Assembly (NCBI GenBank): GCA_029253585.1
Contig: JAQWZF010000018.1
Span: forward strand, 186,001 to 250,000
Reading direction: 5' to 3'
From: Gammaproteobacteria bacterium
GTDB taxonomy: Bacteria; Pseudomonadota; Gammaproteobacteria; Pseudomonadales; Pseudohongiellaceae
Length of the DNA: 64,000 bases
The notes below the pieces were generated by a model. The model was not told the DNA's origin and did no database searches. It saw only the letters and a program-made list of their open reading frames with translations. How positions within the stretch are numbered: position 1 is the first letter of the stretch; each line of letters begins with the position of its first letter. Below are positions 44,836-49,713 of this stretch, one piece after another. The position numbers and the translations under genes are program-made.

Positions 44836-44862
44836 TTGCTAGTAAGGCCGGAATGCTATAAA
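44836..44862 (+). promoter_or_regulatory. Candidate extended -10 promoter for the ATP-grasp gene
   Basis: TGCTATAAA (44854-44862), an extended -10 element, with TTGCTA about 15 bases upstream. It is 32 bases before the start of the ATP-grasp gene, after the SLC13 gene ends. This implies independent transcription of the ATP-grasp/alpha-E/peptidase operon. Confidence 0.4.
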
Positions 44863-44894: not shown

Positions 44895-46337
44895 ATGCGT
44901 GTCAATTGGAAGACTTACAATTCCGGCAAATTTTTTGATGAGATCATCAGCACTCCAGGTTTTGCCCGTAAGCCAGCACGCCGCCTGGCGAGTTATCTTG
45001 CTTCTCTGACTCACGCTGAGTTGCTTGAGAAGAAGCGCGCCGCCGATCTGGCAATCAAGACGATGGGCATTTCCTTTACCGTCTACAGCGATGCTGGAAA
45101 TATCGATCGCGAGTGGCCCTATGACATCATTCCGCGCATTATTGCGGAGAAGGAATGGGATAAAACTAGTCTCGGTTTGCAGCAACGGCTACGCGCCCTA
45201 AACTGCTTCATCAACGACACCTATAACGACCAGAAGATTTTTAAAGACAAGGTAATTCCCAAAGAACTTGTTCTGGATTCGACCAATTTTAGAAAGCAGT
45301 GTATGGGGATCAACCCGCGCTTTGGTGTCTGGGCTCATATCTGCGGTACCGACCTGATCAAGGGTGATGACGGTCAGTTCTATGTCTTGGAAGATAATCT
45401 TCGAGTTCCTTCCGGTGTTTCCTATATGCTGGAAAATCGACGAGTAACGAAGCGTGTGTTTCCCGAACTTTTCGAGAACCATAGCATTCGTCCTATTACA
45501 GAATATCCGGCGCAGTTGTTTGACACGCTGGCGGCGATCTCCCCCAGACAGTCAGACTATCCCGAGGTTGTCGTCCTCACCCCTGGGGTCTATAACTCGG
45601 CATACTTCGAACACTCCTTCCTTGCGCAGCGTATGGGGGCAGAGTTGGTTGAGGGTGGAGATCTTGTCGTTGAGAAAGACAAGGTCTACATGCGCACTAT
45701 CGATGGTCTGTCGCAGGTGGATGTAATCTATCGAAGAATCGATGATATGTTTCTCGACCCAAAAGTTTTCAATAAAGACTCCGCATTGGGTGTTCCCGGG
45801 CTTTTTCAGTCCTGGGTTAAAGGCAATGTAGCCCTTGCTAACGCTCCGGGAGCTGGCGTAGCTGACGACAAGATTATCTATACCTACGTTCCCGCTATGA
45901 TTAAATATTATCTTGGTGAGGAGCCGCTGCTGCCAAATGTGCCGAGTTTTCTTTGCGTTGATAAAGTACAGCGGCAGCATGTGTTGCAGAATCTGGACAA
46001 ATTAGTGATTAAACCTGCGAATGAATCGGGTGGCTATGGCATGCTCATTGGCCCGCAGGCTAGCAAGCGGGAATTGGCGGAGTTTGCTCGACGAATCAAG
46101 GCCGACCCAAGAAATTACATGGCGCAGCCGCTCATCTCACTATCCACCGTGCCCATACTAGGCGAGCACAGCGTGGAGCCAAGGCACGTCGACTTGCGAC
46201 CCTTCATCCTGCAGGCAGACAAGACGCACGTAACGGCTGGCGGTCTCACTCGGGTAGCGATGGTGAAGGGCTCCTTCGTGGTTAATTCATCACAGGGTGG
46301 CGGTAGTAAAGACACCTGGATAGTGGGAGATAAATAA
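44895..46337 (+). CDS. Circularly permuted type 2 ATP-grasp protein
   Basis: 480 aa protein of the circularly permuted ATP-grasp family (DUF404/407). Signatures: FNDTYND-type segment (FINDTYNDQKIF), the GVWAHICGTDLIKGDDGQFYVLEDNLRVPSGVSYML region (split by normal turns), KPANESGGYGMLIGP as the ATP-binding turn, and RHVDLRPFILQ. It is known to be co-encoded with alpha-E, transglutaminase and Anbu genes and is proposed to form peptide-like bonds. Here the alpha-E gene follows five bases later. Confidence 0.9.
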   Translation: MRVNWKTYNSGKFFDEIISTPGFARKPARRLASYLASLTHAELLEKKRAADLAIKTMGISFTVYSDAGNIDREWPYDIIPRIIAEKEWDKTSLGLQQRLRALNCFINDTYNDQKIFKDKVIPKELVLDSTNFRKQCMGINPRFGVWAHICGTDLIKGDDGQFYVLEDNLRVPSGVSYMLENRRVTKRVFPELFENHSIRPITEYPAQLFDTLAAISPRQSDYPEVVVLTPGVYNSAYFEHSFLAQRMGAELVEGGDLVVEKDKVYMRTIDGLSQVDVIYRRIDDMFLDPKVFNKDSALGVPGLFQSWVKGNVALANAPGAGVADDKIIYTYVPAMIKYYLGEEPLLPNVPSFLCVDKVQRQHVLQNLDKLVIKPANESGGYGMLIGPQASKRELAEFARRIKADPRNYMAQPLISLSTVPILGEHSVEPRHVDLRPFILQADKTHVTAGGLTRVAMVKGSFVVNSSQGGGSKDTWIVGDK

Positions 46338-46342
46338 ATCTT

Positions 46343-47290
46343 ATGCTTTCACGAGTTGCTGAACGAATATACTGGCAGGCGCGCTATTTGGAGCGCGCGG
46401 AGAATACCGCGCGTCTTCTCAATGTTTTTTCTACCTTGCTGTTAGACCTGCCCCCAGGTACTAAGCTGGGGTGGAGGTCTCTGGTCGAGATTACCGGCAA
46501 TGAGATCGCCTTCGATGCGAAATACAAGTTGGCGAACGAACGCAATGTTATGCGTTTTCTGATGCTAGATGGGGGAAGCAGTTCGCTTCTAGCGACTTTA
46601 GCGAATACTCGAGAGAATGCCCGAACCACTAGAGAGATAATGCCGCTAGAGGCGTTTGAGCAGATCAATGACCTCTATCATTATGCCAAAGACAACGCGG
46701 TCGCTTCTCTTTCCGGCGGTTCCAGGCACAAATTTCTCGAAGAAATTATCTCTAATTGTCATGAAATCTCCGGTTTGATGGCGGGCACTATGAGCAGGGG
46801 AGCGGCATACAGTTTTGTTCGCCTCGGTAGATCGCTGGAGCGAGCCGATATGGCAACTCGTATTATCGATGTTGGTTCTGGCAATTTGTTGCCTGATATA
46901 GGTACGGGAAAGAGGCAGGCGGAATCGAATGAGCCCTATGAGAACACGCTCTGGATGAACATTTTGCGCTCACTAACTGCTTATCAGATGTATCGCCAAC
47001 ACGTGAAGCACCGAGTTAACGGTGAAGATGTTGTAAGGTTTCTTCTTCAGGATGATGACTTCCCTCGGGCGGCGACTCATGCGCTAACCACTATAACAAA
47101 GGTATTGAAGCACCTGCCGAAGGGTAGCAAAGCCGCCAAGCAGGTGGACAAGACACTTCTGATTATTCAGAAGGGCAACATCAGCAAGTTACTAGACGCG
47201 GGCTTGTTTAAATATCTTGATGGCTTACAAATTGAAATTGCCACGATACATCAAAGTATTGCGGACACCTGGTTCCTTCCTCACAAATAG
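46343..47290 (+). CDS. Alpha-E domain protein (DUF403)
   Basis: 315 aa all-helical protein. The N-terminus MLSRVAERIYWQARYLERAENTARLL (split here) is the defining motif, and FVRLGRSLERADMATRIIDVG repeats it internally, consistent with an internal duplication carrying Arg/Glu-rich sites. The function is unknown, but it is always linked with the ATP-grasp protein. It begins five bases after that gene and is followed with no gap by the zinc peptidase gene. Confidence 0.9.
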   Translation: MLSRVAERIYWQARYLERAENTARLLNVFSTLLLDLPPGTKLGWRSLVEITGNEIAFDAKYKLANERNVMRFLMLDGGSSSLLATLANTRENARTTREIMPLEAFEQINDLYHYAKDNAVASLSGGSRHKFLEEIISNCHEISGLMAGTMSRGAAYSFVRLGRSLERADMATRIIDVGSGNLLPDIGTGKRQAESNEPYENTLWMNILRSLTAYQMYRQHVKHRVNGEDVVRFLLQDDDFPRAATHALTTITKVLKHLPKGSKAAKQVDKTLLIIQKGNISKLLDAGLFKYLDGLQIEIATIHQSIADTWFLPHK

Positions 47291-48301
47291 ATGAGAAATT
47301 TTAAATGTAAATGCGGGCAGGTGCTCTTCTTTGAGAACAGCAAGTGCCTCAGTTGTGGCTTTAGTGTGGGCTTCGACCCCCATACAATGAAGATGCGCCG
47401 AGTCGCCGAGGCGAACTTGAGCAACCCTCAGATTGCATCGAGAAAGTCTCCGCTACATCGCTGCAAGAACAATATCGACTATGATGTGTGTAATTGGCTG
47501 GTTAATGATCCGGCTGCTGAATACTGTCTCTCCTGCGAGCTAAACCATACGATTCCTAATTTACTGGATCAGAATAGACGTGCGTGGTGGAAGAGCCTGG
47601 AATATGCCAAACGCCGACTGGTCTTCTCTCTGCTGAGTCTTAACTTGCCCGTAGTAAGTAAACGCAATGACCCTATGGGTCTGGCTTTTAAGTTTATGGA
47701 AGACAAGAGGACAAACCCGGAAGTCTTCGAATCCCATGTTAATACCGGTCACCTCGATGGCATGATTACTATTAACATCGCCGAAGCGGATCGGGTGAGG
47801 AGCGAAATCGCCAGGCAATATACCAGAGAATTGTATCGCACCCTGCTTGGCCATTTCCGCCACGAGAGCGGACACTTTTACTTTCTTAAGTTGATCGATA
47901 CCGACCAGAGGAAAGAGCAATTTAAGGCATTATTCGGCGACTACACGGTTGATTATTCTGCCGCTCTGAAGGCCTATTATGAGAATAACTTCGTCACACC
48001 CCATGACCCGAATATGATCAGCCATTATGCACAGTCTCATCCATGGGAGGACTGGGCGGAAGTCTGGGCGCATTACCTGCACATGATAGATACTCTAGAG
48101 ACGGCGAATCAGTATCGCGTCCGTCAGAGCTCGGCACAGTTTGACAATATCGATAATACTCTGGCTAAGTGGGCAGATTTGACGCTGCTATTGAATTCGC
48201 TGAACCGCAGTATGGGGCTGGAAGATGCCTACCCGTTTGTACTCTCACAGTTATCGCTTAGGAAGCTCCGCTTCGTTCATGGCCTAATTTATCCCAGTTA
48301 G
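47291..48301 (+). CDS. Zinc-ribbon putative metallopeptidase (Peptidase_Mx/DUF type)
   Basis: 336 aa. The N-terminus carries a zinc ribbon (C6, C8, C19, C22: CKCGQVLFF...CLSC). A second Cys group is at C58, C67, C79 and C82. A HExxH site, H191-E192-S193-G194-H195 (FRHESGHFYF), is followed by EDWAEVWAHYLHM, which may supply the third ligand. It matches the putative zinc-binding metallopeptidase family. It abuts the alpha-E gene and occupies the slot where a transglutaminase is usual in this cluster. Its 3' end overlaps the convergent Anbu gene by 44 bases. Confidence 0.8.
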   Translation: MRNFKCKCGQVLFFENSKCLSCGFSVGFDPHTMKMRRVAEANLSNPQIASRKSPLHRCKNNIDYDVCNWLVNDPAAEYCLSCELNHTIPNLLDQNRRAWWKSLEYAKRRLVFSLLSLNLPVVSKRNDPMGLAFKFMEDKRTNPEVFESHVNTGHLDGMITINIAEADRVRSEIARQYTRELYRTLLGHFRHESGHFYFLKLIDTDQRKEQFKALFGDYTVDYSAALKAYYENNFVTPHDPNMISHYAQSHPWEDWAEVWAHYLHMIDTLETANQYRVRQSSAQFDNIDNTLAKWADLTLLLNSLNRSMGLEDAYPFVLSQLSLRKLRFVHGLIYPS

Positions 48302-49016
48302 TTGCCCAGGTAAGGGGTGGCATGCGCAGGAAGGCACCTTTGAGTAGTTGATCCCAGGATTTTTTTAGATCGCGAAGAAATTCGCTGTCTTCGTCGAAGC
48401 GGTGATAATTCGTCGCGGTGAGAGAGCTTGTTTTGTAGATTAGCATTTCAATCGGTGGTCCCACACTCAGGTTACTGCGCAGCGTTGAGTCCATGGAAAC
48501 GAGTGCGCACATAGCGCAAGTATCCAGATCAAGCTCAGGTGTCAGAATGCGGTCGAGTATGGGCTTGCCATATTTACTTTCTCCTATCTGTAGATAGGTT
48601 GTGTCCTTGGAAGTCGTGATGTGGTTTCCTTCCGGATAGACCAGTATAGTTTCATGCTTGGCAGTGCCTATCTGGCCGCCAATGATAAAGCTAGCCTCGA
48701 ACTTCTTGCCTTCGACTGTGCGTTTTTCCTGCTGTTCCCTTGAGATGTCACCGATGTAATCGGCCGCCTCTTCGAGGCTGCCAATATTGAGGAGATTTAC
48801 GTCTGCATTCTTTCGGATATCGGACTTTACGGTAGCGATGGTGGCCTGAGATGTGGCCAGGTTACCGGCGCTGAGGATGACGAACTGACGCTCGCCATCG
48901 ATGCCAAAGCGAAACATTTTGCTGTAAGTGGACACCTGATCTATACCGGCGTTGGTGAGTGAATCGGAGCAAAAGATCATGCCTCCGTCCACGGATACTG
49001 CTACACAATAAGTCAT
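48258..49016 (-). CDS. Anbu proteasome-like N-terminal-nucleophile protease
   Basis: 252 aa of the HslV/20S-beta superfamily. The N-terminus MTYCVAVSVDGGMIFCSDSLTNAG (two pieces) shows that Thr2 becomes the nucleophile after Met removal, with D17 and K32 of the mature chain (SDS; STYSKMF) completing the catalytic set. Anbu assembles into open helical or ring structures and is genetically linked with ATP-grasp/alpha-E genes; its substrates are unknown. Here it is on the opposite strand and convergent, overlapping the peptidase gene by 44 bases. Confidence 0.9.
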   Translation of the reverse strand: MTYCVAVSVDGGMIFCSDSLTNAGIDQVSTYSKMFRFGIDGERQFVILSAGNLATSQATIATVKSDIRKNADVNLLNIGSLEEAADYIGDISREQQEKRTVEGKKFEASFIIGGQIGTAKHETILVYPEGNHITTSKDTTYLQIGESKYGKPILDRILTPELDLDTCAMCALVSMDSTLRSNLSVGPPIEMLIYKTSSLTATNYHRFDEDSEFLRDLKKSWDQLLKGAFLRMPPLTWATNWDKLGHERSGAS

Positions 49017-49198
49017 TTTTTATTAATTCTAGAAAATCAGGCGGACAATCATACTAACTATGCTGGTAGCTGGGTAGCGGTTTTTCAATAATTTCGGAGG
49101 GAAATTTTCACGAATATAGCGGGTTTTATTTGAAGCGAATAATAGCCACAGGGCCTCTAAAAATAGCCTCTACAGGGTCTTCTATCGACATAATAAAC

Positions 49199-49480
49199 CT
49201 AGCGCATGGAGTCTAGCAGGCCATTCAGATCATCGTAGCCGAAGTCATCGTCGTAGTCGAATTCGTGTTCGATACGCTTGCTCTCCAAACGTTCTTCGAT
49301 GCGCCTACGCAAATCGGTTAGCTGTGTCTTGGAGGGGGCCGCTTTTACCGTTTCGTCATCACTATCAGTAGCAACAACGGCGTCGTCAATATCATCTGTA
49401 TCATCGATCGGTAATATGGCAGCAGAATCAAAAAACTCTTTCGAGTCGTCGATTGAGTCATCCCATTGGGTTTCTTTCAT
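49199..49480 (-). CDS. Small acidic protein, possibly PA3496 family
   Basis: 93 aa, strongly acidic with many Asp. The segment LTDLRRRIEERLESKRIEHEFDYDDDFGYDD (two pieces) has the R-R-x-I-E-x-x-x-E-x-K-R helix followed by an acidic tail seen in PA3496-type small proteins; this assignment is tentative. ATG at 49480 is chosen over an upstream GTG at 49492. It stands alone. Confidence 0.55.
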   Translation of the reverse strand: MKETQWDDSIDDSKEFFDSAAILPIDDTDDIDDAVVATDSDDETVKAAPSKTQLTDLRRRIEERLESKRIEHEFDYDDDFGYDDLNGLLDSMR

Positions 49481-49713
49481 GGTGATCACCACTGTGTCAA
49501 AATAAACGGTGTTTAACTGAGAGCACTAGCTCCTTGGTAAACGTATCGTTTGTTCTGGCGCGAATCTTCAATAAAAATCACGAAAAAATCAAAGAATATT
49601 TTAAGAATTTTTAGGCGGCGTGAAGCGCCCGAAAGAGCGCCAGAGGAAGTGCTAGAGAAAGGCCAGAGAAAAGCCAATAAAAACAGCAAATTACTTGGGT
49701 GAGGAGGGGCTGT

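Follow-up and report, generated by a model that had tools for sequence, protein, structure and literature searches.

Among known systems, one of the closest to the locus analysed here is the Anbu operon, which, according to the cited passages of two reports (PMC6376114, PMC5666114), comprises an ATP-grasp protein, an alpha-E protein, a transglutaminase-like protein and Anbu. The zinc peptidase family Peptidase_Mx is known from plasmid records, which, where they annotate it at all, call it a 'putative zinc-binding (metallo)peptidase' without naming a pathway; one such copy is held by a Burkholderia cenocepacia plasmid record (H5). Here we analyse a stretch of 64,000 nucleotides from a gammaproteobacterium of the Pseudohongiellaceae (GCA_029253585.1, contig JAQWZF010000018.1, positions 186,001 to 250,000 of the forward strand; hereafter the window), in which a Peptidase_Mx gene adjoins genes for a circularly permuted ATP-grasp protein, alpha-E and Anbu. 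This cluster is a genuine variant, found repeatedly, of a known system, and the useful and apparently new point that it provides is the dependency of one form of Peptidase_Mx on the alpha-E core. Its features are as follows.

44895..46337, + strand: circularly permuted ATP-grasp protein, presumed amide ligase, 480 residues (Pfam CP_ATPgrasp_2 PF14403, 556 bits)
46343..47290, + strand: alpha-E helical protein, 315 residues (Pfam Alpha-E PF04168, 270 bits)
47291..48301, + strand: Peptidase_Mx, eight-Cys zinc-ribbon region and predicted HExxH zinc peptidase, 336 residues (PF15887, 288 bits; Zn_ribbon_DZR_6 PF10005, 76 bits)
48258..49016, − strand: Anbu, proteasome-like N-terminal threonine hydrolase family, 252 residues (Protein Data Bank (PDB) matches; invariant Thr2, Asp18 and Lys33)
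48258..48301, both strands: 44 bases shared by the convergent peptidase and Anbu genes (from the open reading frame (ORF) coordinates)

An ORF check of the window returned the four genes at exactly the coordinates given in the initial annotation, and the abutting alpha-E and peptidase genes (TAGATG, stop and start), the convergent Anbu with its 44-base overlap and the family assignments were likewise borne out. The alpha-E gene begins 5 bases downstream of the ATP-grasp gene. With Anbu on the opposite strand, the cluster does not have the order of a four-gene single operon, and gene order also varies among relatives. The peptidase query fetched 14 related loci, from uncultured Gammaproteobacteria and Pseudomonadales, 13 of which preserve the identical overlap with both frames intact; in the fourteenth (L047) these frames are broken, and two near relatives (L036 and L040) are cut by a contig end on the ligase side.

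Residues 12–479 of the ATP-grasp protein align to PDB entry 3n6x (E 1.6e-154), and a sequence search found no PDB relative of alpha-E at E 1. The peptidase matches both PF15887 and PF10005 over their full length; its eight cysteines are residues 6, 8, 19, 22, 58, 67, 79 and 82, its HESGH motif spans residues 191–195, and H191, E192, H195, H250, E253, D254 and E257 are invariant across 36 aligned rows. The sole PDB match of the peptidase profile is marginal: 38 positions align to 9urd_A, a zinc metallohydrolase lipoprotein, at E 0.0085. For the Anbu gene, neither Pfam nor NCBIfam gave a match at E 0.001; it matches five distinct PDB sequences (5loy, 5nyw, 5lox, 5nyj and 5nyf; E 1.5e-66 to 3.3e-51). 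Three of these bear the name 'Anbu', the other two only 'Peptidase'. Thr2, Asp18 and Lys33 of the protein are invariant across 28 aligned rows. Residue 20 of the window protein is Leu (SDSLTNAG), whereas Arg occupies this position in the 27 other rows of that alignment; the listed close relatives also have Leu, with the exception of L045.

Co-occurrence and linkage of peptidase and alpha-E

We surveyed a class sample (274 genomes of the window's class) and a phylum sample (219 genomes). Alpha-E is present in 79 of the 274 class-sample genomes, and Peptidase_Mx matches are present in 48, of which 39 are full-length. After exclusion of one genome (G025) whose only full-length match belongs to a second subfamily, every genome with the form found in the window (hereafter the double-ribbon form) also carries alpha-E (38/38, compared with 79/274 overall; Fisher 9e-25, a value obtained from plain genome counts with neither a species-tree correction nor a control for genome size), and these 38 genomes span 32 families. 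The phylum sample gives the same picture: among 32 genomes with a peptidase match, two with fragments only (both with alpha-E) were dropped, and 29 of the 30 with a full-length peptidase have alpha-E, the lone exception (G349) having the second subfamily. Once the five genomes with only the second subfamily (G349 and four others) were removed, alpha-E accompanied the double-ribbon peptidase in 25 of 25 genomes, three of which are common to the class sample. These 25 had been sorted by BLAST (13), by membership of the class sample (3) or by Pfam score (9; at least 320 bits for the double-ribbon form, compared with at most 276 for the second subfamily). Such co-occurrence, far above chance, agrees with the grouping made in the initial annotation, and it suggests that, in the two samples examined, the double-ribbon Peptidase_Mx depends on the alpha-E core.

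Other families of the system follow alpha-E as well. Anbu occurs in 69 class-sample genomes; with the two that have half-length matches only dropped before counting, 66 of the 67 with a full-length match have alpha-E. DUF2126 occurs in 49 class-sample genomes, every one of them with alpha-E.

Physical linkage was assessed in the fetched neighbourhoods of alpha-E and peptidase matches, in which genes were marked with profiles built from those neighbourhoods; because contig ends truncate several loci, the absence of a neighbour gene is partly uncertain there. Within 8 kb of 84 stand-alone alpha-E loci, the peptidase occurs at 23, Anbu at 49 and a transglutaminase at 41. The peptidase thus lies within 8 kb of alpha-E in 23 of the 38 double-ribbon genomes, against approximately 0.2 expected, and an occurrence beside these genes at chance frequency, which would have spoken against the annotated grouping, is rejected. 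Three orders occur: ligase, alpha-E and peptidase, mostly with convergent Anbu as in the window; a convergent pair of peptidase and Anbu, followed by ligase and alpha-E; and peptidase, ligase and alpha-E. Seven double-ribbon loci were fetched from classes of the phylum other than the window's. Four of them (L200, L206, L208 and L210) have the peptidase next to a fused ATP-grasp system with transglutaminase-DUF2126, and the fetched stretch of the remaining three holds no gene of the system.

A single inherited block was considered and rejected. On a quick alpha-E gene tree, 21 of whose 76 inner branches are supported, the presence of the peptidase cannot be explained with fewer than 25 changes, and supported branches force 10 of these. 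Its distribution shows no more clustering than shuffled labels do. Both results indicate that the peptidase comes and goes. On a tree of 48 peptidases (54 rows, less six that were near-identical or broken), the linked or unlinked state changes at least seven times, three of these forced by supported branches.

The second Peptidase_Mx subfamily has a degenerate ribbon region and is represented by nine loci (L125, L130, L191–L196 and L213), none of them beside alpha-E; in the peptidase tree, L125 and L130, with degenerate ribbons, split off with 100/100 support.

Transglutaminases in peptidase-bearing genomes

The initial annotation placed the peptidase in the position of the transglutaminase, and this description holds in part. 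No transglutaminase-profile match lies at 38–56 kb of the window, and within alpha-E genomes peptidase and transglutaminase are anticorrelated: a transglutaminase is found within 8 kb at 6 of 23 peptidase-linked loci, compared with 35 of 61 loci that lack the peptidase (p 0.014); DUF2126 is found in 16 of 38 alpha-E genomes with the peptidase, compared with 33 of 41 without (p 0.0005); and PF08379 matches exceeding 40 bits in 18 of 38, compared with 36 of 41 (p 0.0002). In twelve of the peptidase genomes there is no match to either PF08379 or DUF2126; two of these (G124 and G140) match the transglutaminase of the window's genome described below, leaving ten without any of the three.

The six linked loci that hold both enzymes do not fit the description, nor do the four loci from other classes that pair the peptidase with the fused transglutaminase-DUF2126 system. 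The annotation had further suggested looking for a transglutaminase elsewhere in the genome, and one was found: of three Transglut_core matches, only one is on the cluster's contig, 168 kb off (264 residues, C40:61838-62629; L180:8839-9633), so that the enzyme is unlinked and not missing from the cell. Homologues of this protein (E 1e-15 or better) occur in 36 of the 79 alpha-E genomes and in none of 80 genomes tested among the 195 without alpha-E. A close copy (at least 51% identity) is present in 19 genomes including that of the window, 13 of them with the peptidase. Among the 18 other close copies, four (in G128, G043, G264 and G256) belong to or adjoin an alpha-E or fused cluster, and in the fetched stretches of the remaining 14, some on short contigs, none of the ligase, alpha-E, peptidase and Anbu genes is present. 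In the window's genome the transglutaminase is flanked by genes that we take to encode a rimK-like ATP-grasp protein and a RimB-like protease; the rimK neighbour recurs in one of 14 fetched loci (L228).

Strict replacement is therefore rejected by the coexistence at linked loci and the unlinked copy, and a partial substitution of the transglutaminase by the peptidase is possible. That Peptidase_Mx takes the place of the transglutaminase-like enzyme at the same step of a pathway seems doubtful to us: the three anticorrelations and the genomes with neither family argue for it, but peptidase and transglutaminase coexist in many genomes, that of the window retains its unlinked enzyme, and tree-independent pairs, although they lean the same way, are too few for significance, the counts covering PF08379, DUF2126 and window-type proteins.

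Nitrogen control, upstream elements and neighbouring genes

The cited passages on related clusters point to nitrogen control. In Pseudomonas putida, PP_2685 (Anbu) and PP_2688 (ATP-grasp) have log2 fold values of 4.44 and 3.99 on nitrate against ammonium (PMC8050072), and PP_2686–2688 have values of 11 to 37 under nitrogen limitation (PMC7801951). In B. cenocepacia, I35_5080-83 are common targets of sigma54 and NtrC, with values of −6.0 to −9.4 in an ntrC mutant (PMC5491218), and in marine metagenomes DUF403, DUF404 and DUF407 correlate with urea genes (PMC3597751). In our loci, scored with an approximate matrix (maximum 19.6), 18 of 115 ATP-grasp ORFs (15.7%) are preceded by a sigma54-like site, compared with 1.3% of 1631 other ORFs.

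Two upstream elements were inferred in the window, and a small ORF was noticed there.

44836..44862, + strand: putative sigma70-type promoter ahead of the ATP-grasp gene (TTGCTA and TATAAA, spaced by 15 bases; extended −10 TGC)
49048..49053, − strand: putative −10-like TATGAT upstream of Anbu
49199..49492, − strand: small acidic ORF upstream of Anbu, approximately 95 residues

The columns of the sigma70-like element are partly conserved in 11 aligned upstream regions, with L045 diverging; upstream of Anbu, GTATGATT is invariant in 11 aligned upstream regions. The small acidic ORF has a 3′ end conserved in near relatives and is without a Pfam match.

Among neighbours recurring in at least five loci are ABC ATPases (12 loci), a gene of approximately 410 residues (11), a short-chain-dehydrogenase-like gene (8) and, in near relatives, a hisC-like gene (5); no other gene family reaches five loci, and a further fixed partner gene was not found among them. 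Recurrent ORFs of at least 80 residues beside the clusters include no further named family, and recurrent small ORFs coincide with the place of the 410-residue gene. The latter is whole in nine of its 11 loci, none of them peptidase-linked (for example, L144:10013-11251 on the + strand and L080:2565-3785 on the − strand); whole copies are 62–67% identical to that of L080, and there is no confident Pfam or NCBIfam match.

Candidate functions of the cluster

We read the cluster as one configuration of a modular amide-bond system, and assign this reading a probability of roughly 0.45, which includes the action of the peptidase on the ligase's product and the direction of flux. A fixed core (that is, the ATP-grasp ligase and its partner alpha-E) would join a carboxylate to an amine using ATP, and individually optional hydrolases (Anbu with its N-terminal threonine, the zinc enzyme Peptidase_Mx and transglutaminase-like cysteine enzymes) would act on the product or its precursor. 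In the window, Peptidase_Mx is co-directional with the core and the convergent Anbu probably has a separate promoter, which could allow synthesis and breakdown to be adjusted independently. The near confinement of several unrelated hydrolases to genomes with the ligase core suggests that they act on its product, and the presence of the double-ribbon peptidase only in genomes with a member of the ligase pair, in both samples, suggests a common substance. A role in nitrogen economy may be carried over, by analogy, from the P. putida and B. cenocepacia clusters. We tentatively go one step further and consider it possible that the double-ribbon Peptidase_Mx serves the alpha-E/ATP-grasp pathway exclusively and is absent wherever the core is, and that, together with Anbu and transglutaminase-like proteins, it belongs to a set of interchangeable hydrolases opening a nitrogen-related amide made by the ligase.

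Several observations weigh against the amide-ligase reading. In addition to the uncorrected counts behind the Fisher value, 9 of the 48 class-sample genomes with Peptidase_Mx have short matches only, and seven of these lack alpha-E; they were set aside as presumably another protein (six of the nine matches cover one common stretch, approximately 75 of 236 positions), and their inclusion would make the dependency weaker. In 15 of the 38 peptidase genomes, the peptidase lies away from stand-alone alpha-E. AlphaFold models, from 13-row alignments of near relatives, are of low confidence for both the peptidase (mean predicted local distance difference test score (pLDDT) 49, predicted template modelling score (pTM) 0.36) and alpha-E (mean pLDDT 47, pTM 0.41), because these alignments lacked depth. 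In the cited passages of PMC6376114, Anbu from three species showed no activity towards any of the three substrates offered, and the operon proteins were not seen to form a complex. As for nitrogen, PP_2685 (Anbu) itself has values of only 1.1 to 4.8 in the passage cited from PMC7801951; by the same approximate matrix, no sigma54 site was found in the window ahead of the ligase, the peptidase or Anbu (best scores of 4.1, 4.1 and −1.0, respectively, of 19.6), and only two of the 18 high-scoring ATP-grasp loci (L086 and L108) are peptidase-linked. Given the last two results, nitrogen control may not apply to peptidase-type clusters.

The initial annotation had proposed a peptide-tag or small-peptide system. 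In the tag version, the ligase would attach a tag or short peptide to proteins, Anbu would degrade the tagged proteins or take the tag off, and Peptidase_Mx would mature or remove it, as deubiquitinases do. Two different proteases do adjoin a presumed amide ligase, and tagging was proposed in earlier work for the four-gene Anbu operon, as the cited passage of PMC6376114 relates. We nevertheless consider this unlikely: no conserved small modifier ORF, nor any recurrent gene suited as a tag, was found in the search beside the clusters, so that tagging lacks direct support, although a modifier could be encoded elsewhere; no AAA+ unfoldase-like family appears among the recurrent neighbours, judged by one representative per family; and peptidase activity of Anbu was not observed (same passages). 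The ligase may instead make a small peptide or amide natural product, for which Peptidase_Mx and Anbu would be maturation enzymes. ATP-grasp enzymes make small-molecule amides. The enzyme of the Yersinia bercovieri operon releases phosphate from ATP, according to the part of PMC6376114 cited here; yet few gene families recur beside the clusters, no precursor ORF was found there, and the wide spread of the peptidase (32 families) and of alpha-E (79 of 274 genomes) speaks for general metabolism. We regard such a product as improbable.

It is also doubtful that Peptidase_Mx is a general or stress peptidase merely sharing hosts and regulation with the alpha-E system. The 15 genomes with an unlinked peptidase would fit such a role, as would a Sphingomonas plasmid copy beside Hsp20 and sugar-phosphate genes; however, although the peptidase has been gained or lost many times, alpha-E accompanies it in all 38 genomes of the one sample and all 25 of the other, and the several adjacency orders, with at least seven changes between linked and unlinked states, argue against it. 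With the amide-ligase core and its optional hydrolases as the best reading, the question narrows to which amide the ligase makes and which hydrolase opens it. Anbu has been proposed as a protein close to the origin of proteasomes; a second protease family that, in the samples examined, is restricted to alpha-E genomes offers a concrete and testable partner.

Compared with known systems, the window shares with the Anbu operon (in the passages cited) the adjacent ligase, alpha-E and Anbu families, but its cluster has no linked transglutaminase, has Peptidase_Mx as the third gene and has Anbu convergent to, and overlapping, the peptidase. Unlike the copies in plasmid records, for which no pathway is named, the Peptidase_Mx gene of the window abuts the alpha-E gene in the same direction; among the matches listed, which do not cover the 2009 amidoligase paper, no paper joins Peptidase_Mx with alpha-E. 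The nitrogen-responsive clusters of B. cenocepacia (I35_5080-83; PMC5491218) and P. putida (PP_2685–2688; PMC8050072, PMC7801951) have, in the passages cited, the same core (that is, a DUF404/DUF407 ATP-grasp protein and a DUF403 alpha-E protein), accompanied in P. putida by Anbu. The reported genes of these two clusters include a transglutaminase and not the peptidase, none of the nitrogen-control passages concerns the peptidase, and the control shown for the two clusters contrasts with a window cluster that joins the same core to a predicted zinc peptidase and in which no sigma54 site was found.

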